A stretch of 48,189 nt of DNA from Nitrospiria bacterium. Lineage in GTDB: Bacteria; Nitrospirota; UBA9217. The notes beneath the pieces are model-generated. The model ran no database searches and was not told where the DNA came from. It saw nothing but the letters and a program-made list of their open reading frames with translations. Within the stretch, counting starts at the first letter, position 1; every line of letters begins with the position of its first letter. The position numbers were made by a program, and so were the translations under genes. Of this stretch, positions 986 through 46,915 are shown piece after piece. The DNA is taken from NCBI GenBank assembly GCA_919901555.1, contig CAKKPG010000140.1, positions 1 to 48,189 of the forward strand, in the 5' to 3' direction.

Positions 986-1060
986 TCAGAATGCACTCAA
1001 GCTTGTAAGGGAAGCATAAGAAGAACCCTTATAGACGTGATACAGTTCTCCCCGCCTCAT
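986..1060 (-). pseudogene. mazF-like toxin stump
   Basis: Directly after the ribbon-helix-helix antitoxin, with an ATGA overlap, an ORF begins MRRGELYHVYK. This is the typical N-terminus of MazF/PemK mRNA interferases (MRRGELYxVxKP). Similarity ends after about 11 residues and the frame stops after 24 codons. Downstream DNA in another frame encodes only a short hydrophobic stretch. Seen: the start, the overlap and the early stop. Inferred: the gene was truncated by a deletion or replacement and the toxin is inactive. Confidence 0.6.
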
Positions 1061-1287
1061 AGGTCAGCTTGAAATAAAAGAACGTCCGCCGCTTCTTTAT
1101 TGAGCTTATCCGATTTCTTATTGAGGATTTCAAGATCGGCGAGATCACGATTGATATGGATGCGGCGCTCGACATACTCCTTGACGGCCTCCTCGATAAG
1201 CTGCGACCTGTTCTTCCTGCCGCCGAACTCTTTATCGATGGTCTTCATCAAACCCTCGTCGAGTGCTACAGATGTCTTGATTTTCAT
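1057..1287 (-). CDS. Ribbon-helix-helix antitoxin (MazE/CopG-like)
   Basis: A 76-residue protein. It opens with a beta strand (KIKTSVALD), followed by the two helices of a ribbon-helix-helix DNA-binding domain around the GGRKNRSQLIEEAVKEYVE segment (about residues 22-41). The C-terminal part (residues 45-76) is the likely toxin-binding tail, ending NKEAADVLLFQADL as in MazE-type partners of MazF. The stop codon overlaps the start of the truncated mazF-like ORF by ATGA. The antitoxin looks intact and complete although its toxin is not. It may persist as an autoregulator or as protection against a homologous toxin elsewhere. Confidence 0.75.
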   Translation of the reverse strand: MKIKTSVALDEGLMKTIDKEFGGRKNRSQLIEEAVKEYVERRIHINRDLADLEILNKKSDKLNKEAADVLLFQADL

Positions 1288-1305
1288 AGAATAAATAAAC
1301 TGTCT

Positions 1306-1371
1306 TTATCCGATAGTGTCGCGGTCGGCAAGTTTAAGGTAGGCCCGTGCGAGGTCAACCGGTTGCTTCAT
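1306..1371 (-). pseudogene. HEPN-domain partner stump
   Basis: A 21-codon ORF starts inside the end of the MNT gene (17-base overlap) and reads MKQPVDLARAYLKLADRDTIG before a TAA. The N-terminal helix resembles the first helix of HEPN proteins that normally follow an MNT nucleotidyltransferase. The remaining roughly 100 residues are missing: the antitoxin at 1287 follows 18 bases later. Seen: position, overlap and short frame. Inferred: a HEPN toxin lost by deletion. Confidence 0.5.
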
Positions 1372-1675
1372 GCAACACCTTCCCCTGTTTCAAGGCCCCG
1401 TAGAGGGTCGTGCCCGGCAGATGCCCCCATTCCCGGACATCGTCTTCCGAATACACGAGAACATCGACGGGAATCCGGAGGGGCCGCAAAAGACGGCGCA
1501 AACGTACCATCTCCTCAAGCTTGTTGGCCAGATCCCTCTCGATCACCAGCAAATCCACATCTGATTCTTCCGTCGGCCTGCCGTGGGCATATGACCCGAA
1601 CAGGATGATCTTGAGGGGATGCACGGCATCCGCGAGAATCCTTGCTGCTTCGATTATTCGTTCTGTTGCGATCAT
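1355..1675 (-). CDS. MNT-type minimal nucleotidyltransferase
   Basis: A 106-residue protein starting MIATERII. It carries the nucleotidyltransferase signature GSYAHGRPTEESDVDLLV, a GSX10DXD motif for two catalytic Asp residues, with a third acidic strand near PVDVLVYSEDD. In HEPN/MNT modules this protein neutralises the HEPN RNase, in some cases by adding AMP to it. I chose the ATG at 1675 because GGAGGAG lies 11 bases upstream; the longer frame up to 1810 lacks family similarity. Its HEPN partner is reduced to a 21-codon stump just downstream, so the antitoxin stands alone. Confidence 0.8.
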   Translation of the reverse strand: MIATERIIEAARILADAVHPLKIILFGSYAHGRPTEESDVDLLVIERDLANKLEEMVRLRRLLRPLRIPVDVLVYSEDDVREWGHLPGTTLYGALKQGKVLHEATG

Positions 1676-1789
1676 GACTGAGCGAACTCCTCCGGCTTCC
1701 GCCGTGAAAGAATAGTACGGCTTCCCGGGAAATGCAAGATGATTTCTACCAGGGGTCGTTGCGTTTGATGCTTGAATATTGCCATCCCA

Positions 1790-1846
1790 CTCAGCTTGCT
1801 TGTTCAGCAAAACGGAAATTTCCAGCTTGTCTCAAGCCACTCTGCT
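1790..1846. repeat. Direct repeat, copy 1
   Basis: A segment of about 57 bases runs from CTCAGCTTGC to CAAGCCACTCTGCT. It is matched at roughly 80% by 2749-2806. Both copies sit at the 3' end of a minus-strand TA gene. The function is unknown; it may be a dispersed element or a recombination scar. Confidence 0.6.
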
Positions 1847-1851
1847 CGGAC

Positions 1852-2298
1852 TCATTCCTCTCCGATCGCTTCGATATCGGCCATATCTTTCTTCCTGCCC
1901 AGCGCCCTTTTGTTCCGAAGAAACTCTTCCTTCCCGAGGTAGTATACCGCAACATCTCCGAAAGTCCCCTTTACGCGGCCGGCGGCCGCTTCTTCCCAGG
2001 ACACCCCGGTAAGAGACGTCACGATATCAACGCGCACGGGCGCGACGCCGAGCTGTACTACCTTTCCCGGAAAGAAGAAATCCTCTTCCGCCAGATCGAG
2101 CTTACCGAAGCCGAAGTCGTCAAGAGCTTGGAGAATACGTCGCGCGTTTTCCGCCTGTGGGCGGACGAGAATGTCCAGGTCCCCCGTGTATCTTGGAGCT
2201 CCATGATACGCGAGTGCATACGCCCCGACGATGATGTACTCGACTTTATGCGCGTTTAACAACGCGAGCAGTTCTCTGAAGTCTTTCTGAACTTCCAT
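1852..2298 (-). CDS. Nucleotidyltransferase-fold protein (DUF6036-like)
   Basis: A 148-residue protein starting MEVQKDFREL. Motifs are YIIVGAYALAYHGAPRYTGDLDILV (residues about 19-44), a G-x-x-A-x-x-x-H helix followed by T-x-D-x-D, and RVDIVTSLTGVSW for a third Asp. This fits the DUF6036/AbiEii-like nucleotidyltransferase group, whose members commonly form TA-like pairs with a small upstream protein. The start at 2298 is preferred over 2322 because the family begins with a helix ahead of LLALLNAHKVEYIIVG. The gene overlaps its upstream partner by 53 bases. Both genes of this pair look intact, unlike the flanking modules. Confidence 0.75.
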   Translation of the reverse strand: MEVQKDFRELLALLNAHKVEYIIVGAYALAYHGAPRYTGDLDILVRPQAENARRILQALDDFGFGKLDLAEEDFFFPGKVVQLGVAPVRVDIVTSLTGVSWEEAAAGRVKGTFGDVAVYYLGKEEFLRNKRALGRKKDMADIEAIGEE

Positions 2299-2428
2299 GA
2301 TATTCCCTTCGCAAGCGCTCAACGGCGGCTATACGCTCCTCGGGCGGTCTCGACAGCCAATACGCAAGATTCTCTTTTATTTCAGAGAACTCCCCCAGGC
2401 TTCCCTTTCGCACGGTCTTTTGAAGCAT
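2246..2428 (-). CDS. Small antitoxin-like partner of the nucleotidyltransferase
   Basis: A 60-residue protein. Its centre, ENLAYWLSRPPEERIAAVE followed by a LRREYHG helix, and the tail ERLQRTARVVKR are typical of the short proteins encoded just upstream of DUF6036-type nucleotidyltransferases. A strong AAGGAGGG ribosome-binding site lies upstream. The stop lies 53 bases inside the next gene, so translation is probably coupled. Function is inferred from this recurrent pairing only. Confidence 0.7.
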   Translation of the reverse strand: MLQKTVRKGSLGEFSEIKENLAYWLSRPPEERIAAVERLRREYHGSSERLQRTARVVKRA

Positions 2429-2801
2429 TTTCCTTTTTCACCCTCCTTAACTATTAATGAGAGTAATGTCAGGCTTTTTGTGTGCGCTTGCAGTATTGTA
2501 ATAAACTATAGGGCACTTTTGGCCCATTTGTCAAGAAGGTATATCGGCCTATTGAGTATATATTCAGGATCAACGTTCACGTAATAAGGAACAACAATGC
2601 CTGTAAATTTTTCGTGTACGGCCGCAGCGTTCCTGATACACACGTCCGCCATGAGGTCGCAAAATTTCGTTAGAGAATCGCTCGACATAACTAATTCCCT
2701 TTCCTACTACCGCGGCGTGTCGGGCTTGAAGATCGTCGTTCTCTGCCCCTCAGCATGCCTATTCCAGCAGAATGAAAATTTTCAGCCGGTCCCAAGCCAC
2801 T
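2429..2801. other. Intergenic region between two TA modules
   Basis: No gene is supported here. The stretch is A+T-rich and holds the promoter of the small antitoxin gene (2505-2534) and the second copy of a 57-base direct repeat (2749-2806). A 60-codon minus-strand frame at 2506-2688 runs through the promoter and matches nothing I recognise. Confidence 0.45.
2505..2534 (-). promoter_or_regulatory. Promoter with palindromic spacer, antitoxin/nucleotidyltransferase pair
   Basis: On the minus strand TTGACA (2529-2534) and TATAGT (2505-2510) are 18 bases apart. The spacer contains GGGCcaaaagtGCCC, a small palindrome placed like an operator, which would suit autorepression by the TA complex. The transcript would have a leader of about 70 bases before 2428. 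Confidence 0.6.
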
Positions 2802-2806
2802 CTACT
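2749..2806. repeat. Direct repeat, copy 2
   Basis: Matches 1790-1846 from CTCAGCATGCC to CAAGCCACTCTACT at about 80%. It overlaps the stop codon of the higA-like gene at 2802. Copy 1 sits 6 bases beyond the stop of the nucleotidyltransferase gene. Confidence 0.6.
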
Positions 2807-3155
2807 TTTTCCGTCTTTTCACCCGACCGGACTTGTAATCGGCCCTTGCTTCCGCTACGCGGTCCGCATACTCAGCAGAAATGCTGACGGTGAGCTTCTT
2901 CCCCAGTGCAGCGGCAAAGCGCTCCAGGGTGGATAACTTAATGTCCTCGGCGTGGTTTTCAATCCTTGAAATTGCCGTCTTCTTGGTTCTTAATCTCATG
3001 GCCAGTTCATCCTGGGTCAGACCCGCGGCCTCCCGCGCCTCCCTGAGCGTGACACCGATCTTGAACTGCTCGTACCCTTCTTCATAGCCCTTTGCAAAAG
3101 CACTGTCGCGCTTTTTGCGTTCATTGACATATTTTCGAAGGGGGATCATTTCCAT
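2802..3155 (-). CDS. XRE-family antitoxin (HigA-like)
   Basis: A 117-residue protein starting MEMIPLRKYVNERKK. The helix-turn-helix spans about residues 35-90: TLREAREAAGLTQDELAMRLRTKKTAISRIEN, the Cro/C1 pattern, followed by LSTLERFAAALGKKL. The N-terminal segment with FAKGYEEGYEQF is typical of HigA/RelB-type antitoxins paired with Gp49-like HigB toxins. I prefer the internal ATG at 3155 over 3194 because the upstream residues read in the wrong frame through a HigB remnant. It should bind its own promoter DNA and a HigB toxin, but only the middle of a higB remains just upstream. Confidence 0.8.
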   Translation of the reverse strand: MEMIPLRKYVNERKKRDSAFAKGYEEGYEQFKIGVTLREAREAAGLTQDELAMRLRTKKTAISRIENHAEDIKLSTLERFAAALGKKLTVSISAEYADRVAEARADYKSGRVKRRKK

Positions 3156-3238
3156 CGCAATGCCCTCGATCCGAATTGGATTCTGTACTCCCAAATCTCG
3201 CCTGAACTTGCCACCTTTTTAATATGTGCTCCCCGCAA
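3146..3238 (-). pseudogene. higB-like toxin remnant
   Basis: In the frame after the vapC remnant stop, about 30 codons read HIKKVASSGEIWEYRIQF then GSRALRW. This is the conserved middle of Gp49/HigB (RelE-fold) toxins. The part before it and the catalytic C-terminal strand are absent, and the frame stops at a TGA overlapping the start of the higA-like gene. Seen: the conserved block and the stop. Inferred: deletion joined a higB fragment to the end of a vapC. Confidence 0.65.
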
Positions 3239-3357
3239 TCATTCCTGATAAATCTTCAGCGCTATAATTTTTCTGACGTTGTCCAAATCACCGTCATTGT
3301 AGAACAGAATGAGATCAAGCTCAAGTGCGGCTTGATCAATGTATCAACAAGAACCAC
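3239..3357 (-). pseudogene. vapC with large internal deletion and frameshift
   Basis: A GTG at 3357, overlapping the end of vapB, starts VVLVDT, the classic VapC opening with the first PIN-domain Asp. After six or seven codons the frame shifts and the DNA encodes IDQAALELDLILFYNDGD then LDNVRKIIALKIYQE and a stop. That is the C-terminal strand and tail of VapC (FxNDxDFDxIxxxxxLKIYQE). Roughly 80 to 90 codons holding the other catalytic acids are missing. Inferred: an inactive toxin. Confidence 0.7.
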
Positions 3358-3559
3358 TGCGCGCCCCCTTGCGCAGTGGTTTATGATCGTAGTCCTCTCT
3401 GAACGCGATCTTTCCCCTCAGGTCCCGAATGTCCGACCTTTGTCGAACAGCAATAAGCTCTTCCAGGGCTTCGTGAATAAGCTCATTTACGGTTTTTGCC
3501 TTAGAAAACTTGAAGGCGTGTTTCACAAGTTCGTCGTTCAATACAATATTTGTCCGCAT
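3344..3559 (-). CDS. vapB: VapB-family antitoxin
   Basis: A 71-residue protein, MRTNIVLNDELVKHAFKF then SKAKTVNELIHEALEELI, the ribbon-helix-helix start of the VapB family that opens MRTNI(V/E)hDD. The RSDIRDLRGKIAF segment is the toxin-binding tail. The start at 3559 is set by family length; the frame up to 3772 is not supported. It overlaps the start of a vapC remnant, the normal vapBC arrangement. The antitoxin appears complete although its toxin is deleted. Confidence 0.8.
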   Translation of the reverse strand: MRTNIVLNDELVKHAFKFSKAKTVNELIHEALEELIAVRQRSDIRDLRGKIAFREDYDHKPLRKGARSGSC

Positions 3560-3572
3560 ACTATGTACCTCA

Positions 3573-3601
3573 ATATAATCATAATAGTATATATTTTGCA
3601 A
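3573..3601 (-). promoter_or_regulatory. Putative promoter of the orphan vapB
   Basis: Minus-strand TTGCAA (3596-3601) and TTATAT (3573-3578) are 17 bases apart in a very A+T-rich stretch. Expected transcription start is close to 3566, a few bases before the ATG at 3559. Confidence 0.4.
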
Positions 3602-3689
3602 AAAGAAAACCAACAATTTTCTCTCTATCATAGCCTCATAATCGACATAAAAAGGCCGAAGCATTTGACCGCTCCGGCCTCTCTCTTTT

Positions 3690-3780
3690 AAACTTTCCCT
3701 CCCGCTTTGTTGAGAGGGGCCAAAGAGAGGGCGGAACGCCGATTCATGCACTTCACCCCCTCCCCCCATCAAGAGGGAAG
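3690..3780. repeat. CCCTCC/GAGAGG-type short repeats
   Basis: Pyrimidine-rich CCCTCC and purine-rich GAGAGGGG blocks alternate here (TTTCCCTCCCGC, GAGAGGGGCC, CCCCTCCCCCC, AAGAGGGAAG). Similar blocks occur near 64, 5520 and 6320. They may form weak hairpins between the kinase-like gene and vapB. Confidence 0.4.
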
Positions 3781-3788
3781 CTGTTAAT

Positions 3789-5501
3789 TTAAACCTTCCA
3801 GATCACCTCAAAATTGCAAATGATGACATCGGGCTCGCCTGATTTGTCCTTCATGATTGCGCCTTTGGCGTCCACCGCGAGAAGAAGGTCGTTGGGTTTC
3901 AATAATGACCCGTCGTACCCGGCCTCCCTCAGCCGCGCAATGACATTCTCCAGGAGCTTTCTGCTTTGCGATTCATCGATGATCTTTTTGCGGACCGCCT
4001 TGGCCAGATCGACCGGCGTGAGCAGCGCGCCTTCCTGCTTCGACACCCATTCATCGGGGCCGTTGTAGTAGCCGCGGATCGTTATGTAGTTGTGGTCTTC
4101 TCCCAGGATCGGATTGCCGTCGTTGTCCAGGATATCCTTGTGGGTCTCGTACCTGCGGGGGTCGACCGACCGTTCCAGCTTTTCGCTGCCCGTCGCGTAG
4201 ATCGCCCGTACATATACCGCGTGGATCCCCAGCTGGTTCAGCGTCTCGGAGATGGCGAACTCCTCGAAGGGGCTGTTGATCCCGTACTGCCTGATCTTCT
4301 CGATCTCCCCGGCGTTGAATTTTTTGTCGGCCGGGACCTCGCCCACGCGGGATGTTTCCCAGACGAGATGGATGTTGTCCTTCGTGACCGTGTAATACAC
4401 CTCATTGTCATCGGACAGGCTCAGGGAAGGCGTCTTACGCCAGCGCTCGGGCAGGAAATAATCGAACAGCCGCGCGTTCCGACCCACGACCCACATGCGG
4501 CCGCCGGTGCTTTCGGCATGACCGAAGATGTAGGGCACGCCGAGGATATCCGTGCGGGTCAGGTGCGAAGGCAGGGGCGCGGGGTTGAGCCGGTCCCGCA
4601 TATCGTCAAGATAGGAATGCCGCCTCGAAGCCTTGACCCGGTCCTCGTGCTCAGGCGTCCGGAAGAGCAGCTCATAATCGATGACCGAGTATTTCCCGAC
4701 ATTCAGCAGATGGTAGACCATGTCCGCCTGCTTCCGCGCCGCATCGGCATCCCCGCTTCCGCCTGCCTGCTCGATGCGCTCACAGTCATCTTCATCGAGG
4801 ATCACGTGCTCGGGCTTCATGTCCGCCATGTGGTACCCTTTTATGCTCAGGTCTTCGAAGGCCTTCTTCTGCATGGTCTGCAGGTGATGAACGATGTCGG
4901 GGATCTCGAGCTTGATGTGCTCGAAGAGCTCGATGAGGTTCTTGCCCCTGATCCATTCATAAACGAGCTTGTATTGTTTCAGAATATCGAGGTCGATGCC
5001 CGGATGGCGCACGCGGATGCGGTTGATCTTGGCCCGGGAACGTCCGCTCTGCCAGAGCTGCATTCTCTGAGGCGGCACGTAGATCGCCAGGGGCCGCTGC
5101 ACCCTGATCCACCCGATCCGCTGGCCGACCTGCTTGTCGCCCATCTCCATGACCAGGGCGAACTCTTCCCAGGGGCTGTTGAACTCGGCGCTGACGAACT
5201 CCTCGAGCGTGTGGGTGTTGATCGGGACGTCTTCTCCCACGCGGCAGTTCTTGACGACGAGGTCCAGGCTGGCGCCGTTGATGCGCCTCGTCGGCACGCG
5301 GTACACGGAACTGGTCCCCAGCAGCCGGACCCGGTGCCTGGTGAACCAGCTCTCTTCATACCAGTTTTTGATATCGAGATGTTCCTGATGGGGTTCGGCA
5401 AAACGGGTAAAGTACAGGTCTCCGCCGTCGTCGGTCTTGGTGTGCAGGTATACCACGCCCAACACGTTCACGAGGGCTTTATGGGGAGCGGTCTTTTTCA
5501 C
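3789..5501 (-). CDS. Tandem kinase-like / degenerate kinase-like protein
   Basis: A 570-residue soluble protein with two copies of a protein-kinase-like fold (my reading). Copy 1: a beta-3-like LVVKNCRVGE with Lys84, a hinge-like KLVYEWIRGKNL near 178-189, a catalytic-loop-like GYHMADMKPEH (His224, Asp227, Lys229, residues 222-232), and VIDYEL with Asp275 at the DFG position. Copy 2 repeats the order: LVWETSRVGE (Lys replaced by Glu382), NSPFEEFAI at 409-417 mirroring NSPWEEFAL at 108-116, GYDGSLLKPND at 528-538 (catalytic Asp replaced by Leu533), and CNFE (Asp replaced by Asn563). Copy 1 could bind ATP and transfer phosphate; copy 2 looks like a pseudokinase. No neighbour suggests a substrate, and the gene sits between TA modules. 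I do not recognise the family by name. Confidence 0.7.
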   Translation of the reverse strand: MKKTAPHKALVNVLGVVYLHTKTDDGGDLYFTRFAEPHQEHLDIKNWYEESWFTRHRVRLLGTSSVYRVPTRRINGASLDLVVKNCRVGEDVPINTHTLEEFVSAEFNSPWEEFALVMEMGDKQVGQRIGWIRVQRPLAIYVPPQRMQLWQSGRSRAKINRIRVRHPGIDLDILKQYKLVYEWIRGKNLIELFEHIKLEIPDIVHHLQTMQKKAFEDLSIKGYHMADMKPEHVILDEDDCERIEQAGGSGDADAARKQADMVYHLLNVGKYSVIDYELLFRTPEHEDRVKASRRHSYLDDMRDRLNPAPLPSHLTRTDILGVPYIFGHAESTGGRMWVVGRNARLFDYFLPERWRKTPSLSLSDDNEVYYTVTKDNIHLVWETSRVGEVPADKKFNAGEIEKIRQYGINSPFEEFAISETLNQLGIHAVYVRAIYATGSEKLERSVDPRRYETHKDILDNDGNPILGEDHNYITIRGYYNGPDEWVSKQEGALLTPVDLAKAVRKKIIDESQSRKLLENVIARLREAGYDGSLLKPNDLLLAVDAKGAIMKDKSGEPDVIICNFEVIWKV

Positions 5502-5570: not shown

Positions 5571-5963
5571 CTATTTCCCCGGCAACAGCAGCCCATCGAT
5601 CTCCTCGAAGTGCCGGTCGAATGAGTACAGCGCCATCCCATGCTTCAACGCGTTCGCGGCGATCCAGACATCGTTCGAGGGGATCGGCCTTCCCTTTGCC
5701 TTCAACTTCTTCACGATCAACGCGTAATATTCTGCGGTCTCCAGGTCATGCAAGAGCGCCTCCACTCGGGGCGCATTGAGAAATGTTTCCAGTTCCCGTC
5801 GGTTCTTCGCTTCCTTGTTGCCGAGAGAAAATCCGGCGTAAAGTTCTGCGATGACCGCTATGTCCACGCCTATGACATCACATATCCGGAACACTTCAAC
5901 GACATCCGCAGCGTTGTTCTTGAAGGCGACATAGATGTTCGTGTCGATGGCCAGGCGCCTCAT
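5571..5963 (-). CDS. vapC: VapC-family PIN-domain toxin
   Basis: A 130-residue PIN-domain RNase. Acidic residues of the Mg2+ site are visible: Asp7 in AIDTNIYVAF, Glu40 in IAELYAGF, Asp98 in PSNDVWIAANAL and Asp119 in FDRHFEEIDGL. Unlike the deleted vapC at 3239-3357 this copy is full length. VapC enzymes cut specific tRNAs or rRNA when freed from VapB. Its start overlaps the end of the antitoxin gene by ATGA, so the two are translationally coupled. Target RNA cannot be read from the sequence. Confidence 0.88.
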   Translation of the reverse strand: MRRLAIDTNIYVAFKNNAADVVEVFRICDVIGVDIAVIAELYAGFSLGNKEAKNRRELETFLNAPRVEALLHDLETAEYYALIVKKLKAKGRPIPSNDVWIAANALKHGMALYSFDRHFEEIDGLLLPGK

Positions 5964-6217
5964 TTCCAGATGTCCTCATCGATCCGCTCAAAGATCTTCG
6001 TATTCTTCCTGAACGCCGTTGTTTCTTCCCTGCTCCACCCGCCTGCGAGCGCGTCCAGGTCGTGATGCTTCTTGAACACCGGTTCCTTGCCCGTCCCCGT
6101 GACTTTTTTCAATGCCTGGATAACCCACTGGTTCGCGCTCAGATTGTTCTGCTGTGCACGGGATTTGATGGCCCGATCCAGTTCAGGATCGATGCCGCGT
6201 ATGGTCAGCGTTTTCAT
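5960..6217 (-). CDS. vapB: VapB/FitA-like antitoxin
   Basis: An 85-residue antitoxin. The N-terminus, MKTLTIRGIDPELDRAIKSR followed by AQQNNLSANQWVIQAL, is a ribbon-helix-helix domain of the FitA/Arc type. The C-terminal part (WSREETTAFRKNTKIFERID) is the toxin-binding tail. GGAGG lies just upstream of the ATG. It forms a two-gene operon with the PIN toxin and is driven by a consensus promoter at 6260-6288 with A+T-rich half-sites that could be its operator. Confidence 0.85.
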   Translation of the reverse strand: MKTLTIRGIDPELDRAIKSRAQQNNLSANQWVIQALKKVTGTGKEPVFKKHHDLDALAGGWSREETTAFRKNTKIFERIDEDIWK

Positions 6218-6409: not shown

Positions 6410-8197
6410 TTACCCCAGCCTTTTCCTGAACTCCTCAAGCTGCTTTTTCAAACGCTCCGGCAGTCGGCTCCCGAACAGCGCAAAGTGCTTCTCGATGTCC
6501 GGGACCTCGGCCTTCCACTCCTTCAGGTCCACATTCATAAGGGCCTTCATATTGCCGGACGATATGTCGAGTCCGGAAAGATCGAGATCCCCTTCCTTCG
6601 GCATCAGCCCAATCGGCGTTTCTTTGGCCCCTATCTTGCCGTCCACGCGCTGGCACATCCATTTGAGCATCCGGCTGTTGTCGCTGAACCCGGGCCACAG
6701 GAACCTGCCTTCCGGGCTCTTCCGAAACCAGTTCACGTAGAAGATCTTCGGGGCCTTCGCCCCCAGCGTGTCCCCCATGGTGAACCAGTGCGTGAAGTAG
6801 TCGCCCATATGGTAGCCGCAGAAAGGTTTCATGGCAAACGGGTCCCGCCGCAGGTTGCCGACGGCGCCGATGTTCGCGGAGGTGGTCTCGGATGCGGCGG
6901 TCGCGCCCATGAACACGCCGTGGTCCCAGGAATATGCCTCGGTCACGAGCGGCACAACGCTGCTCCTCCTGCCGCCGAAGATGAAGATGTCGATGGCTAC
7001 GCCCTCGGGATTTTCCCAGTCCGGGCAGATGATCGGGCACTGCGAGGCCGGGGCGGTGAAGCGCGCGTTCGCGTGGGCCGCGTCGTCCTTGCTCGCGGGC
7101 GTCCAGTCGCGGCCTTTCCAGTCTATGGCATGGGCCGGAGAATCATCGGTCATGCCCTCCCACCACACATCGCCGTCGTCGGTGAGGGCGCAGTTCGTGA
7201 AGATGACGTCCTTCTTGAGCGTGTCCATGGCCATGGGGTTCGTGCCGTAGGATGTGCCTGGCGCGACCCCGAAGAACCCGGCCTCGGGGTTGATGGCGTG
7301 CAGCCTGTTGTCCCCGCGGACCTTCATCCAGGCGATATCGTCGCCGATGCACTCGCATTTCCATCCTTTTATGGACGGCTGCATCATGGCGAGGTTCGTC
7401 TTGCCGCAGGCCGACGGGAACGCGGCCGCGATGTGGTAGCGCTTCCCTTCCGGGCTCGTGAGCCGCAGGATCAGCATGTGCTCGGCCATCCAGCCTTCAT
7501 GCCGCGCCATGTTCGATGCGATGCGAAGGGCGAGGCACTTTTTCCCGAGCAGGGCATTGCCGCCGTAGCCCGAGCCGTAGGACCAGATCAGGTTCTCCTC
7601 CGGGAAATGGCTGATATACTTTTTCTCGATCGGGGCGCAGGGCCACAGGGCGTCCTTCTGTCCGGGCGCGAGCGGCGCTCCGATGGAGTGCAGACACGGA
7701 ATAAATTCGCCCTTTTCACCAAGCACGTCCAGCACCTTCGCGCTGACCCGGGTCATGATGTGCATATTGCATACGACATAGGGACTGTCGGTCAGCTCAA
7801 CGCCGATCTTCGCGATGGGAGAACCAATGGGACCCATGGAGAAGGGGATGACGTACATCGTCCGGCCTTTCATACAGCCCTGGTACAGTCCCCGCATGGT
7901 CTTCTTGAGCTCGTCGGGATGGACCCAGTTGTTCGTGGGGCCGGCCTCTTCCTGCGAGCGCGTGCTGATGTAGGTGCGGTCCTCCACGCGGGCTACGTCG
8001 CTGGGGTCGGTGCGGAACAGGAAGCTGTTCGGCCGCTTCTTGAGCGGGACCGCCATGCCGCGCTCCAACATGAGCGCCATCATCCGGCCGTACTCTGCTT
8101 TTGATCCGTCACACCAGGTGATCGAGTCGGGCCGACAGAGGTCAGCGACCTCCTTCACCCAGGTGTTCAGTTTTTCATTCCTTGATCCGCTCTTCAT
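6410..8197 (-). CDS. pckG: Phosphoenolpyruvate carboxykinase (GTP)
   Basis: A 595-residue cytosolic enzyme converting oxaloacetate and GTP to PEP, GDP and CO2 (EC 4.1.1.32). Motifs of the GTP class are clear: the P-loop [10 protein letters not shown] at about 261-270 with the mobile-loop Cys264, kinase-2 GDDIAWM at 285-291, [15 protein letters not shown] near 207-221, and the metal and substrate segment around MHIMTRVS at 145-152. Length matches the family (about 600). The ATG at 8197 is chosen because GAGGAG lies eight bases upstream; a TTG two codons earlier is too close to it. It is monocistronic, bounded by hairpins at 8351-8374 and 6321-6348. The GTP type is usual in many anaerobic delta-proteobacteria and Nitrospirota. 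Confidence 0.97.
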
Positions 8198-8350
8198 AAC
8201 CAAATCTCCTCAGCCCCCCTCTCCGCGTCCCCTGAGGCATCCCCTGGGGCGTCCCCATGATGCCATGGGGGAAAACCTCATTTTAATCCATGAGTAAACA
8301 ATACGAGGCGGGGGAATAGGGCGTATTATGCGCGATTGGAGGGGAAAAGT

Positions 8351-41080: not shown

Positions 41081-43483
41081 CTATGGCTCCGGAGCATACC
41101 CGATATCCCGAAAACCCCGTAACCGCTTTTTATGCATACGCAGAAGCTTCGGCACGTTTGCGTCCACATAATCGTATACGCGCACTTCTTCCTTGCCGGG
41201 ATGCGTCCGGTGCAGCCTGCCGGCGTACTGCACAATCGTGCCCTTCCAGGAAAACGGCATTGCAAGAATGAGCGTGTCAAGCCGGGGGTCGTCAAACCCC
41301 TCGCCGAGATAGCGGCCGGTCGCGGCAATAAGCCGCTCTTCGCCGTCGGGTATGGCCGCGAGTTTTTCCAGCGCTTGTCGCCGCTCTTTGGGTGACAGCC
41401 TCCCGCTCAGGATGACGAGATTTTTCACTTCGTGACGCAACTTCTCCGCAAGAATATCCAGGTGTTCCTTCCTCTCCGTCAGCAGCACGGGAGTGCGTCC
41501 CTCTCTGAGGACCTCCCGCACGTCTGCCAGGATAAGGTCGTTTCGACGTTGATCGGCGACCACTGCCGCAAAAATGTCTTGAATGCCCGTTTCGGGGTTT
41601 TGCATGGTGAAATCCGTTGTCCGGCAGATCAAATGATGCCGGAATTGCGCGCTCGTCTCGTGACTTTTCGGATGGACGGAATGGCATACTGGTCCGCACT
41701 GCATATGAATGATCGGCTGATGCCCGTCCCGGCGATATGGCGTTGCGGTCAAACCGACAACGTATCGCGCTTTCACCTCGTTCAAGACCCGCTCAAAGGA
41801 AACCGCGGGGAGATGATGGCATTCATCCACAATCACCTGACCATAGTTGGCCACCAGATCGCTGACCTCGTCTTTTCGGACAAGGCTCTGGATCATTGCA
41901 ACATCCAACCTCCCGTTCGGTTTGTTCTTGCCTGACCCGATCTTGCCGATTTCTTTCGGATCGATTCCGAGAAAGAGGGAAAGCCTTGCGATCCACTGGT
42001 CCAGAAGCTCTTTCCTGTGTACAAGCACGAGCGTACTGCATCCCCGCGCGGCAGTTAGATACGCGCCGATTACGGTTTTGCCGAATCCCGGCGGCGCTGA
42101 CAGGACGCCGTTGTCGTGCTTAAGAATTTCGTTGATAGCCTCCTGCTGCGGTTCTCTCAGTGTGCCCTGAAAAGCAAACGAGATATGGGCGGATGCAACG
42201 TGTTTATCATCCAGCGAAAGCTTGACACCGTGTTCCACAAATAGCTCACGGACATTGTCAATGCAGCCTCTTGGGACGGCAATATGTTCGGGGTGTTCTT
42301 CATAGCAGGAAATCACACGAGGTATCCGCGCCGTCGAGAGACGCAAGCTCTGCTTCTCGTAAAACATCGGATTTTGAAACGAAGCCAACCGCTTGATACG
42401 GGTCAAAAAAGGCGAAGGCAAATCCTTTTTCTCAATAAAGAGACGCTGAGCAAAAACACCGTGCGTTTCAGGTGGAAATTTCCCGCTGATTTTCTTCTTC
42501 GGTATTTTTCTCGACGCCGGCCGGTTCCAGGGAGCATGATCGTCCCCGTCTTCTGCGGAATCCCGCGGCATACCGAGCACATCGCCCTGCCGTATCGCCT
42601 CATCGGCGATCCGCTGGATGACATCCGGCGACAGTCGTCCGACCGATGCAAGATACGCCCATTGATCTTCATAGGGCGTGAAGTTTTCATCGAGAAATAC
42701 CGTATTGCCTTTTTGTCTCGGCTCCTGCTGAAACGGCAATGCGATCAGGTTTCCGAAGCCGCCCTTAGTCAGTGTGTCCTGGCTGGGGAACAACCGGTCG
42801 TAGGATTCCATGCTGAGCTGGTGACGCCGGCTCATGGTTTCCGTGATCAGATAACATCCCATCGTTCGCGCTGTAGCTGCCCGCACCGGTTCAGTAAAGA
42901 AAAACCACGCATGCGCTCCGTTTCCCGAACGCGAACGCTCGATAGCCACGTGCAGGTCCATTTTCTTGCAGGTTTCCCGGAATGCGTCTACATCATCCAT
43001 CCACGTATCTTTATCGAAGTCGGCGGCAAGGAAACAACAGGTATCGTCCGGAAACATGGGGTAGGCGCCGATGACGTGACCTCCTTGGAGATGGTCGATA
43101 ATGACCTGGTCGGTCACTTGAAGGAACTTGCGATTTGAGCACTCGCCGCATTTGACCGGAGGTTTGCGGGTCTTTCCGCACACGCCGGACATCCAGTCAT
43201 TTGAGCAGGCCGGCGCATAGCCTTTCTTCCCTGCGCGGCTTGTCCACAGTCTTGGGAATACGTCTTCACGGCCGCGAAACAAGCTTCGGAACAGCGCAAC
43301 TTTTTCCTGAGACGACCTAGCCGCATAAAGCGCTTGCGGCTCAGCACAGGCGGATTCAAACGCAGCGAGTTCGCGCTTGAGCCCCTCGAGTCTAACAATG
43401 ACCCGCTCCCGTTCCGTATTCAGTTTGGAGAGAAGGGCTTCTTCCCGTGAGATGGCCTTATGGAGTGATTCCTTGTCGGACAT
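41081..43483 (-). CDS. TOTE-type primase-helicase (SF2)
   Basis: An 800-residue protein. A coiled coil occupies residues 1-50. An archaeo-eukaryotic primase-like domain (about 60-260) has Asp155 and Asp157 in AADFDKDTW and His191 in RSRSGNGAHAWFF, plus cysteines CGKT...CGEC near 102-115 that may bind zinc. An SF2 helicase follows: Walker A APPGFGKTVIGAYL (463-476), DECHH (553-557), GLTATPYRRDG, and motif VI QYAGRLHRTH (752-761). This primase-plus-helicase design belongs to the TOTE conflict systems proposed to act against mobile elements. The type III restriction gene lies 206 bases upstream, which supports a defence role. Confidence 0.82.
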   Translation of the reverse strand: MSDKESLHKAISREEALLSKLNTERERVIVRLEGLKRELAAFESACAEPQALYAARSSQEKVALFRSLFRGREDVFPRLWTSRAGKKGYAPACSNDWMSGVCGKTRKPPVKCGECSNRKFLQVTDQVIIDHLQGGHVIGAYPMFPDDTCCFLAADFDKDTWMDDVDAFRETCKKMDLHVAIERSRSGNGAHAWFFFTEPVRAATARTMGCYLITETMSRRHQLSMESYDRLFPSQDTLTKGGFGNLIALPFQQEPRQKGNTVFLDENFTPYEDQWAYLASVGRLSPDVIQRIADEAIRQGDVLGMPRDSAEDGDDHAPWNRPASRKIPKKKISGKFPPETHGVFAQRLFIEKKDLPSPFLTRIKRLASFQNPMFYEKQSLRLSTARIPRVISCYEEHPEHIAVPRGCIDNVRELFVEHGVKLSLDDKHVASAHISFAFQGTLREPQQEAINEILKHDNGVLSAPPGFGKTVIGAYLTAARGCSTLVLVHRKELLDQWIARLSLFLGIDPKEIGKIGSGKNKPNGRLDVAMIQSLVRKDEVSDLVANYGQVIVDECHHLPAVSFERVLNEVKARYVVGLTATPYRRDGHQPIIHMQCGPVCHSVHPKSHETSAQFRHHLICRTTDFTMQNPETGIQDIFAAVVADQRRNDLILADVREVLREGRTPVLLTERKEHLDILAEKLRHEVKNLVILSGRLSPKERRQALEKLAAIPDGEERLIAATGRYLGEGFDDPRLDTLILAMPFSWKGTIVQYAGRLHRTHPGKEEVRVYDYVDANVPKLLRMHKKRLRGFRDIGYAPEP

Positions 43484-43689
43484 TTATCCTGAGGTATAGC
43501 CCCTCATAGCAGGCAAACTACCGTGCCCCTTCGATCCATGCAGCGGGGGCTGCGGAAGCGTTTGATAATCAGTATTGAGATTGTGATGGGCATAGCAAGG
43601 CATCTCCTGACTTAACAGTACAATATTACAAAATTACTACTTCTCTGTCTATTCATAGTTATAAGCAGTGCGGAATGTTTTTGGGTATG

Positions 43690-46665
43690 CTATACCTCAT
43701 CCGCACTCACGACAACCGCGAAAGGCACTTCCAACGCTTCAAAATGTCGCCGACCGCAGTGAACCTTATCATCTTCAGTCGTTCTCAGCTTTAAGCGATT
43801 GTGCGTGCTTTTTGTTTCGCGCACCAGATAGAAAGCCTGGCCATCGAACTTCATAATTGCCCAATCAGGATTGTATTTGCCAACTGGGGTATCTACCTCG
43901 AACCAACTCGGCAGCTTGACAAACAGTTTGATATCTTCCCGCTCGTCGAGACGACGGGCGAAGGAACGCTCAACGTCCGATTCGTAAACAACGTACTCAT
44001 ACACGGACTTGTTGACCTGTAGCGCGTTAAGATAATTGATAAGCTCCTCATTCTTGAAGAGAAGTTGTTCCCACTCCGCTTCCGGGCCGGTTCCGGTCAA
44101 ACGCTCATACTTGATCCCATCAACAAGCAGGCGATGAAGTTCATATTTGAGGATCGACGCGACAGCATCCATAAAGCGCTGTGGGTCAACGAAGAATTCA
44201 CTCAGCCTTCCTGACTCTTTCAGGATACGAACCAGTGTCGATCGGGTCAGCTCTGTCTCGTTCTGTAGATATGCAAGCAGGTCCGGCACTAAGCCTTTAT
44301 AGGAAACAGTCTCTTCTGCGGCGCTAACTGCCGTAGTGGCCACACCACCCTTGGTCACGTCAATTTTCCCCGCGCTCACGCGTATATGCGCTGCCTCGAT
44401 CTTTTCCGTCCGGCGCAGGGCGTCTACCGCGCGTTTTACCAGGTCTTCTGTCTTGAATTCCACACGATAGGTTGTCTTTGGTTTAATGCGGTCCCAAAGG
44501 GCCTGAAACTCAGGACTCAGTTGTACTTCCTTACGCAGATGATTAGAACCTTCATCTCGCTCTTTGCGGATATGGCGTTCAATCTGGTATCCTGCCAAAA
44601 GGTCGATGACAGCGGGTACAAGATCGCGATGCGCTTCCGGAAGATTGAGCGCAAATCCAGGACGTTTTGGGTCAAAGGCCGGTTGGATGCGACCTTCAGA
44701 ATCAAGCATACTCTGACCGATTAAAGCTTCTCGTATGGCCGTCGCGGTCTCTTTCCCTACCGGCCTCTCTTCACCATCCACCAGGCGTGTGAGTTTGGCA
44801 AACGCGGTAATCGGCACCTTGCCGAAAGTCACACCGCACTCTTCCTCATATTCGTTCTGGAGCGCGCGGGCAAAGTCTTCATAGCTTTCATTGGCCACCA
44901 CGAAAAGCTTGTTGACTGACTCGTCAAAGACGCGCAGGCCGTCTTGATTGACCGGTAAGCGCAGCCCCCGGCCGATCTCCTGCCGCTTTTTCATGGAGCT
45001 CCGCGTCTCATTCAGCGTGCAGATTTGAAATACGTTCGGATTGTCCCATCCCTCACGCAAGGCCGAATGGCTGAAGATGAAGCGCAGTGGTTCGTCACTC
45101 GACAACAACCGTTCCTTGTCTTTCATGATCAGGTTGTACACTTCGTCATCGGCCTGCGTGTCGCCTCTCGTATCCTTGAACACACCTTTCTTGTCCTGCG
45201 CAAAGTAACCGTTATGAAGCCGCTCAACAGGCAGTTTCAACCATTCCAGTTCCCTGAATCGTTCCTCCCTCGCCAATTCGGCAAGGACCTCTTCAAAAAA
45301 CTCTGCGAACTTGCCCATTACGGGCTTGCCGGATTCATCATAATCGCGGTAATTCGCCACCCGGTCGACAAAGAACAGGCTCAAAACCTTGATGCCCCGA
45401 GCTCGAACCTGAAGCTCCTTTTCCAAGTGCTTCTTTACCGTATGCTTTATCTGGACGCGCCACACATCGTCCCGCAGGCCGCCTATTTCCTCGCCCTGTC
45501 TGAGCACGCGGCCATTATTGAAACGCACAAACTCATTACCGGGCTCAGCGTTGATCTCAGCAACCACAAAACCATCCTGATAAATGGCGCGCTCATTGGA
45601 AAGCTCGAACAAATCCGAGCCGCTTTTCACAGGCACTGACTTCTCCTTCGGCCCTTCCGGCGTCTGTACGTGAATTCGAACTTTGGCCTTGATGCCCTTG
45701 GTGTAATCGATCTTTTCTACCCGCACAAAGGCATCGTTCCTGCCGCCATCCGCAATAGCGCTGGCCACGACGATTTGCTTGACCAATCTCAGCTCGAAGG
45801 CCCGGACAGGATCGAGCCGATAGACCAGGTTATAGGGATTGCGGTGAGTGGCCGAGTAGCGCAGCGTACATAAAGGATTGAGCGCCTTGATAGCTTCCTG
45901 CGCTTTATCGGTCGAGTCCACGCTCTGGGGCTCGTCGATGATGACGACAGGCCGCGTTGCCTGGACGAATTCGATAGGTTGGCGACCGGAGAGCTTGTCG
46001 CTTTCTTTATAGATGACATTGCTCTTTTGCTCTTCCTCTGTGCCGGTGAAGTTTTTGCGGAAGGCGTCTATATTGATCACCAGAATCTGAAGCGTATTGC
46101 TCACCGCAAACTGCCGCAAGCGATTGACTTTCCTCGAGTCATACACGAAATGCTCAAATGGCGGGTTGTTGTAGAGCGCGCGGAAATGTTCGCCGGTAAT
46201 CTCTATATTCTTCAGCACACCCTCACGGATGGCCACGCTCGGCACAACGATGATGAACTTCTGAAAGCCGTATCGCCGGGAAAGCTCAAAAATGGTGCGC
46301 AGATAAACGTAGGTTTTGCCGGTGCCGGTTTCCATTTCCACGGAAAAGTGCGGACACTGACGGGCCTCGTTTGACGCAGGATCAAAGATATCCCATGCCT
46401 CGATCAGCGCTACGGTGCCCGTTGTTTCAATATCATTACGAACCTGCACCGCGCGTGTGTTGGCAAGCAATTTCTCGGGAGAGATCAAAAGTCCGTTGCT
46501 CACACCCAGTTCTGTCCGGTGCTGCCCGGCAAAAAGTCCGCCGTAATCACCGACATGGATGACAGAGTATTCGGGCGCGCCCTGGGGTTGACCGTCAAAG
46601 AGGTCCGTCACCGCCGCCACGGCGTCGAGCTGGTACTGCTGATTGGGGTCAAACTGAAGTTTCAT
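43690..46665 (-). CDS. res: Type III restriction enzyme, Res subunit
   Basis: A 991-residue SF2 ATPase with a C-terminal nuclease. METGTGKTYVYLRT gives Walker A at 113-118, VVIIDEPQSVD the DExx box at 244-247, and SALREGWDNPNVFQIC motif V. The C-terminal PD-(D/E)XK-like domain has YNPDWAIM and YLVRETKS. With a Mod methyltransferase it would cut unmodified DNA by translocation. The ATG at 46665 (MKLQFDPNQQ) is chosen because GGAAAA lies upstream and the TTG at 46896 would add 77 codons of decayed repeat. No mod gene is visible inside the window; it may lie beyond the right edge. A second copy of its 5' end is at 46916-47083. Confidence 0.93.
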   Translation of the reverse strand: MKLQFDPNQQYQLDAVAAVTDLFDGQPQGAPEYSVIHVGDYGGLFAGQHRTELGVSNGLLISPEKLLANTRAVQVRNDIETTGTVALIEAWDIFDPASNEARQCPHFSVEMETGTGKTYVYLRTIFELSRRYGFQKFIIVVPSVAIREGVLKNIEITGEHFRALYNNPPFEHFVYDSRKVNRLRQFAVSNTLQILVINIDAFRKNFTGTEEEQKSNVIYKESDKLSGRQPIEFVQATRPVVIIDEPQSVDSTDKAQEAIKALNPLCTLRYSATHRNPYNLVYRLDPVRAFELRLVKQIVVASAIADGGRNDAFVRVEKIDYTKGIKAKVRIHVQTPEGPKEKSVPVKSGSDLFELSNERAIYQDGFVVAEINAEPGNEFVRFNNGRVLRQGEEIGGLRDDVWRVQIKHTVKKHLEKELQVRARGIKVLSLFFVDRVANYRDYDESGKPVMGKFAEFFEEVLAELAREERFRELEWLKLPVERLHNGYFAQDKKGVFKDTRGDTQADDEVYNLIMKDKERLLSSDEPLRFIFSHSALREGWDNPNVFQICTLNETRSSMKKRQEIGRGLRLPVNQDGLRVFDESVNKLFVVANESYEDFARALQNEYEEECGVTFGKVPITAFAKLTRLVDGEERPVGKETATAIREALIGQSMLDSEGRIQPAFDPKRPGFALNLPEAHRDLVPAVIDLLAGYQIERHIRKERDEGSNHLRKEVQLSPEFQALWDRIKPKTTYRVEFKTEDLVKRAVDALRRTEKIEAAHIRVSAGKIDVTKGGVATTAVSAAEETVSYKGLVPDLLAYLQNETELTRSTLVRILKESGRLSEFFVDPQRFMDAVASILKYELHRLLVDGIKYERLTGTGPEAEWEQLLFKNEELINYLNALQVNKSVYEYVVYESDVERSFARRLDEREDIKLFVKLPSWFEVDTPVGKYNPDWAIMKFDGQAFYLVRETKSTHNRLKLRTTEDDKVHCGRRHFEALEVPFAVVVSADEV

Positions 46666-46684
46666 GCTTTTCCTTAAACATCCA

Positions 46685-46812
46685 GCAAACATATGGAGTC
46701 CGCCAGAAAACGTATGGAGTCCCTGCCCGAATATGAGGAGTCCCCCTCCAAATGTAAGGAGTCCTGCGCAAATGTGAGGAGTCTTCCCGTTCAATGTGAG
46801 GAGTCCTTCCTC
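46685..46812. repeat. Decayed 21-base tandem repeat upstream of res
   Basis: Six or so units of about 21 bases with core GACTCC(T)CACAT on the minus strand (the plus strand shows ATGTGAGGAGTC, ATATGAGGAGTC, ATATGGAGTC). The same unit encodes the heptad DSSHxxx in the neighbouring ATP-binding protein (47350-47493). Here one unit has 20 bases and stops interrupt the coding frame, so it is no longer translated as DSSH. Confidence 0.75.
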
Positions 46813-46915
46813 CCACACCAGGCCGCATAAACGCTTTTCAGCCAAAAGCCGATAGAGTCTCCCTTGAAAATTTTCAGGTTTTTCAGGAAACTCCAAATAT
46901 ACGCGCGCTTATATT

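Follow-up and report, generated by a model that had tools for sequence, protein, structure and literature searches.

PEP carboxykinase (PEPCK) governs how carbon passes from oxaloacetate towards the synthesis of sugars. A kinase domain and a degenerate kinase domain share one chain in JAK kinases, where the pseudokinase comes first, and in plant tandem kinase-pseudokinases such as WTK1. Central-carbon enzymes with a regulator of their own are known from AceK and PpsR/PDRP (PMC9138534, PMC8100219), and GTP-dependent PEPCKs have been reviewed as not being under allosteric control (PMC8100219). Degenerate kinase domains of unknown function are also found in bacteria, in the reviewed pseudokinase families ActPs1-3, GLW, CP1, DYD and DLHK (PMC12599244).

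Here we analysed a 570-residue protein encoded on a 48,189-nucleotide stretch of Nitrospirota DNA (the whole stretch is referred to as the window), together with the genes that precede it:

3789-5501, minus strand: gene of the putative tandem kinase-like/degenerate kinase-like protein, an open reading frame with full-length homologues in 59 Nitrospirota genomes
5571-6217, minus strand: toxin-antitoxin pair, consisting of a PIN-domain toxin (5571-5963, Pfam PIN 2e-13) and a FitA-like RHH antitoxin (5960-6217, 1e-7)
6410-8203, minus strand: GTP-dependent PEPCK (PF00821 E 6e-168, PF17297 E 8e-102), the conserved upstream partner

The protein resembles AceK, the isocitrate dehydrogenase kinase/phosphatase, which is a two-part atypical kinase of about 570-580 residues and is encoded beside central-carbon enzymes, one such enzyme being its target. 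It differs from AceK in that the latter acts on isocitrate dehydrogenase, aceK follows aceBA rather than the gene of its own target, and no duplicated kinase copy has been described for it. With PpsR/PDRP (DUF299) the likeness would lie in a dedicated regulator of a PEP-forming enzyme (PEP synthase or pyruvate phosphate dikinase) that is often encoded beside that enzyme (ppsA-ppsR), whereas PpsR/PDRP has a single domain, another fold and a different target enzyme. Neither shows a sequence relation to the 570-residue family: hhalign gave E 0.04-0.55 for AceK and 0.045-0.53 for PpsR/PDRP, at the level of unrelated controls, and there was no Pfam match to DUF299. The preliminary description of this DNA had likened the protein to the JAKs, which is apt for the presence of both domain types in one chain, as in the plant tandem proteins, but not for their order, since here the catalytic-like copy stands first and the degenerate copy second; moreover, there is no close sequence relation to either group, and the two copies come from one internal duplication. 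The bacterial families of PMC12599244 are set apart by the text of that review rather than by sequences, as it mentions no Nitrospirota, tandem pairs or PEP carboxykinase. The arrangement had been put forward as undescribed for this bacterial family, and our literature searches likewise gave no published description of the protein.

Two halves of one protein

The open reading frame starts with GTG and is single-copy in its own genome. Same-length homologues with 58-81% identity in other Nitrospirota, and one further, divergent homologue with 41% identity, indicate that it is a genuine gene. More than 100 columns are invariant in an alignment of 49 family members, and the protein is therefore under strong purifying selection. 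No Pfam, NCBIfam, PADLOC or PHROG model matched the family above cut-off, and a genome-wide scan with exact peptides, which reaches close relatives only, returned a single close relative.

The same order of motifs had been read twice in the 570 residues, and profile comparison firmly indicates that the two halves are homologous and arose by internal duplication. When aligned using hhalign, residues 1-308 and 309-570 matched with E 4.8e-10 over 212 columns and a score of 73.4, whereas 100 column shuffles scored 24.2 at most and the comparison with one half reversed 19.5; an earlier half-versus-half profile comparison had scored 48, which rose to the present value once more divergent members were added. 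The landmarks first seen by eye (RVGE, NSP[WF]EEFA and GYxxxxxKP) are superposed in this alignment, RVGE on RVGE, NSPWEEFA on NSPFEEFA and GYHMADMKPEH on GYDGSLLKPND. The alignment stops short of the DFG position, where Asp275 and Asn563 were paired by aligning the two halves globally. As initially noted, the protein ends just past the second DFG-like strand, with 7 residues from Asn563 to the end of the chain. The copies and their key positions are as follows:

4578-5501, minus strand: copy 1, residues 1-308, kinase-like with a complete catalytic set; profile matches to protein kinases lie at residues about 177-257
3792-4577, minus strand: copy 2, residues 309-570, putative degenerate copy, by homology to copy 1 and its own structural model
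5250-5252, minus strand: Lys84 codon, VAIK-like lysine position, invariant in the 54 of 54 members with this column
4806-4823, minus strand: catalytic-loop-like D227-M-K229-P-E-H232, of which D227, K229 and H232 do not vary among 55 members
4671-4679, minus strand: DFG-like D275-Y-E277, with D275 and E277 the same in all 55 members
4356-4358, minus strand: Glu382, copy-2 counterpart of Lys84 (hhalign of the halves)
3903-3905, minus strand: Leu533, copy-2 counterpart of Asp227 (hhalign of the halves)
3813-3815, minus strand: Asn563, copy-2 counterpart of Asp275 (global alignment of the halves)

All six of these copy-1 residues (Lys84, Asp227, Lys229, His232, Asp275 and Glu277) are retained in the 41%-identical member, so that the conserved lysine, catalytic aspartate and metal-binding aspartate of the kinase superfamily are present in order, as the preliminary description had proposed. 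Its HxDxKP and DFG labels need amending. In the loop H224-M225-A226-D227-M228-K229-P230, His224 is not conserved and lies one residue too early for the HRD histidine, the Asn of HRDxxxxN is His232, and the DFG position reads D-[YF]-E across homologues. In copy 2, position 382 is not uniformly the Glu first described (Glu in 36, Lys in 16, Arg in 2 and Val in 1 of the 55 homologues), position 533 is Leu in 41 and Ser in 12, and position 563 is Asn in 53 of 55; other residues of this copy are Lys/Arg535, Asp538 and, beside Asn563, Glu565. Copy 2 is thus homologous to copy 1 and is without both aspartates, and it would count as a pseudokinase only on condition that copy 1 is itself a kinase.

Evidence for a kinase fold

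Against all PDB sequences, the family profile matched protein kinases only, aligned at the catalytic loop with weak E values of 0.065-1.1, and of 0.7-1.1 in a second search; copy 2 had no match among PDB sequences. The best match to the family profile outside the family in 396 genomes was a Hanks-type Ser/Thr kinase, with E 4.4e-5 for one genome, in which DMKPEH aligns with DLKPEN. This kinase (L113, positions 1430-2353) belongs to another Nitrospirota genome and is the only clear cross-match beyond the family. Hanks-type kinases (e.g., PknB and S6 kinases) therefore share the catalytic-loop alignment and provide the best PDB, Foldseek and cross-genome matches, but the 570-residue protein differs from them in having no HRD histidine, His in place of the loop Asn, D[YF]E in place of DFG, little C-lobe past the DFG position and no Pfam match above cut-off.

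Structural modelling pointed the same way. Modelled in full with AlphaFold2 on a shallow alignment, the protein reached a pLDDT of 70 and a pTM of 0.53, and its 13 Foldseek matches at E ≤ 0.001 were all protein kinases, with low TM-scores of 0.15-0.34 for a model of moderate confidence. Copy 2 modelled alone, also from a shallow alignment, gave a pLDDT of 76 and a pTM of 0.78; 46 of the 50 Foldseek matches listed have the kinase fold, the best at E 0.05 and none at E ≤ 0.001.

WaaP/WaaY and UbiB-type proteins are atypical kinases, and the copy-1 loop recalls the D-x4-H loop and I-D-[LY] motif of WaaP. Among the E. coli proteins tried by hhalign, WaaY and UbiB alone scored clearly above unrelated controls (E 0.001-0.007), whereas WaaP, InaA, SrkA, AceK, SelO, HipA and PpsR remained at the level of those controls. 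HipA, SelO, AceK, PpsR and SrkA were accordingly ruled out as relatives on their profile-to-sequence scores; WaaP and InaA, which share motif letters with copy 1, were rejected for want of a profile match. The Kdo, WaaP and ABC1 Pfam models gave no match above cut-off; below it, ABC1 reached E 0.033 at best and WaaY 0.094. Neither ABC1 nor HipA (hhalign E 0.16-0.61), both named for comparison in the preliminary description, could be matched.

Altogether, the evidence for a kinase fold is consistent, yet weak in each single test. Protein kinases appear to be the closest detectable relatives of copy 1, by a weak signal, and we call this copy kinase-like with fair confidence, whereas the description of copy 2 as a degenerate copy of such a domain would rest mainly on its homology to copy 1. 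The kinase/pseudokinase pair proposed at the outset is therefore retained, as a kinase-like and degenerate kinase-like tandem, as the best and partly supported reading: the duplication is strong, the catalytic set of copy 1 is invariant and the PDB profile matches and the Foldseek matches at E ≤ 0.001 are all protein kinases, although with weak scores.

Linkage to PEPCK and inheritance

In the window, 908 bp separate the gene from that for GTP-PEPCK ahead of it, a stretch that contains the toxin-antitoxin pair. Among 396 Nitrospirota genomes, 59 carry the gene and 58 of these also encode GTP-PEPCK, the sole exception being G343, in which the gene is cut at a contig end. Both genes were looked for in 374 genomes, of which 58 contain the two, 14 only PEPCK, one only the 570-residue protein and 301 neither, these absence counts being weakened by incomplete genomes; Fisher tests of the co-occurrence gave 2e-40 and 1e-12 in two genome sets, uncorrected for shared ancestry. 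Every one of the 53 linked loci has PEPCK upstream and in the same orientation. The gap is at most 212 bp in 35 of the 49 loci measured (median 100), some of the genes overlapping; in the four remaining linked genomes (G003, G212, G214 and G301), the genes were judged to be adjacent by the coordinates of their matches. Five genomes (G313, G249, G395, G347 and G187) have the two genes at separate places or on separate contigs. In G187 the gene gives two separate matches (profile positions 1-386 and 524-571), and its contig has no PEPCK; the split is due either to decay or to an assembly fault. The operon often adjoins genes for an M50-family peptidase and trpS, which are the only constant neighbours besides PEPCK, with no sugar or lipid pathway genes among them, and which persist in genomes that have lost the 570-residue protein. 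PEPCK occurs on 59 plasmid records of other bacteria, the 570-residue protein on none. The gene is thus a near-obligate operon partner of GTP-PEPCK, in constant genetic association with it.

In the PEPCK tree, the gene is missing at isolated tips within the main clade (G233, G273, G333, G341 and G351), which look like losses, and throughout a divergent clade except for G395, where a divergent PEPCK (52%) accompanies the divergent, 41%-identical homologue. Pairwise distances of the two proteins correlate with r 0.83, or 0.70 without G395. The gene is inherited vertically with occasional loss, unlike a mobile defence gene. We also considered a target site in PEPCK and rejected it, as no residue tracks the presence of the gene: no column separates gene-bearing sequences from the five close relatives that lack it, and the four columns that separate them from the divergent gene-lacking clade (103, 446, 495 and 510; controls 0-2) are a weak signal confounded by ancestry.

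The surroundings in the window had suggested a defence or stress kinase. The zone is indeed rich in toxin-antitoxin genes: apart from the PIN/RHH pair, Pfam confirms an HTH gene (2802-3194) and a VapB antitoxin (3344-3772) adjoining the 570-residue protein. Further along this row (1057-3772), an RHH-like open reading frame (1057-1287) and two that are nucleotidyltransferase-like (1355-1810 and 1852-2322) were recognized by eye. At the right end of the window, a possible defence island (41081-46896) holds, as judged by eye, an 800-residue helicase with a seemingly primase-like N-terminal part (41081-43483) and, adjoining it, a 1068-residue protein resembling a type III restriction subunit (43690-46896). 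The PIN/RHH pair, however, is absent from the tight PEPCK-partner arrangement of the relatives and is not part of that system; the toxin-antitoxin genes are local to this genome, where they part the gene from its usual neighbour. The protein matched no PADLOC defence model, searches of phages, plasmids and viral contigs returned no homologue, HipA did not match, and what is constant in the relatives is linkage to, and inheritance with, PEPCK rather than toxin-antitoxin genes. A defence role is refuted as far as the genome data reach, and we consider it highly improbable; the protein is probably a controller of PEPCK instead.

Candidate roles of the 570-residue protein

We give about an even chance to a role as dedicated regulator of the GTP-PEPCK encoded just upstream, the activity and target of the protein being what we infer. 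In such a mechanism, copy 1 would be a divergent protein-kinase-like domain in which Lys84, Asp227, Lys229, His232 and Asp275 bind nucleotide and metal, and it would transfer phosphate (AMP being less likely) to PEPCK, altering its activity or direction. The degenerate copy 2 would keep copy 1 off or on, and would probably bind a nucleotide or metabolite that reports the energy or carbon state. More tentative, at somewhat under even, is the full picture of a lineage-specific kinase-pseudokinase switch in which copy 1 covalently modifies GTP-PEPCK while the degenerate copy senses nucleotide or carbon status. Regulation of PEPCK is suggested because the two genes co-occur in 58 of 59 genomes, keep the same order in every linked locus and diverge in step; because the copy-1 residues are invariant down to 41% identity, the duplication is strong and the searches point to protein kinases; and because regulators beside their own enzymes are known, with aceK behind aceA and ppsR beside ppsA. 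Against this stand the weakness of the kinase similarity in every single test (PDB profile E, TM-scores and pTM), the genomes in which the genes lie apart, the lack of any PEPCK residue that tracks the partner, and the five close relatives that have a near-identical PEPCK without the gene, where PEPCK is therefore independent of its partner. Part of the link could also stem from common descent and co-transcription, with no direct protein target involved.

Two rival readings stand foremost, a small-molecule kinase acting close to gluconeogenesis and a protein that binds PEPCK without catalysis. In the former case, which we consider unlikely, the protein would act with PEPCK in metabolism rather than as its regulator, copy 1 being a small-molecule kinase with a product or substrate tied to gluconeogenesis. 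Its D-x-K-x-x-H loop, in which His replaces Asn, and the IDYE that follows are similar to WaaP (HRDCYICH...VIDL) and InaA (GFLDLEK) of E. coli K-12, WaaY and UbiB are the sole tested E. coli proteins above controls, and any gluconeogenic role would be compatible with the PEPCK link, but WaaP and InaA themselves are not above controls, the PDB and fold matches are protein kinases, and the constant neighbours include no sugar or lipid pathway genes. The other rival, to which we assign a similarly small chance, holds that both copies are pseudo-enzymes which, by binding nucleotide and PEPCK, would regulate, stabilise or assemble the latter without phosphotransfer. The non-standard loop, the D[YF]E motif, the short C-lobe after the DFG position and the constant operon are all in line with such a partner, whereas the invariance of Lys84, Asp227, Lys229 and Asp275 favours catalysis, or at least metal-nucleotide binding.

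The 570-residue family occurs in a group of mostly uncultured Nitrospirota. As a near-obligate operon partner with a kinase-like residue set and a degenerate copy, it makes control of GTP-PEPCK directly testable. If the regulatory reading is true, the protein would be a module for enzyme control that belongs to no described kinase family, and a bacterial kinase/pseudokinase pair formed by duplication within one chain, separately from the eukaryotic cases.
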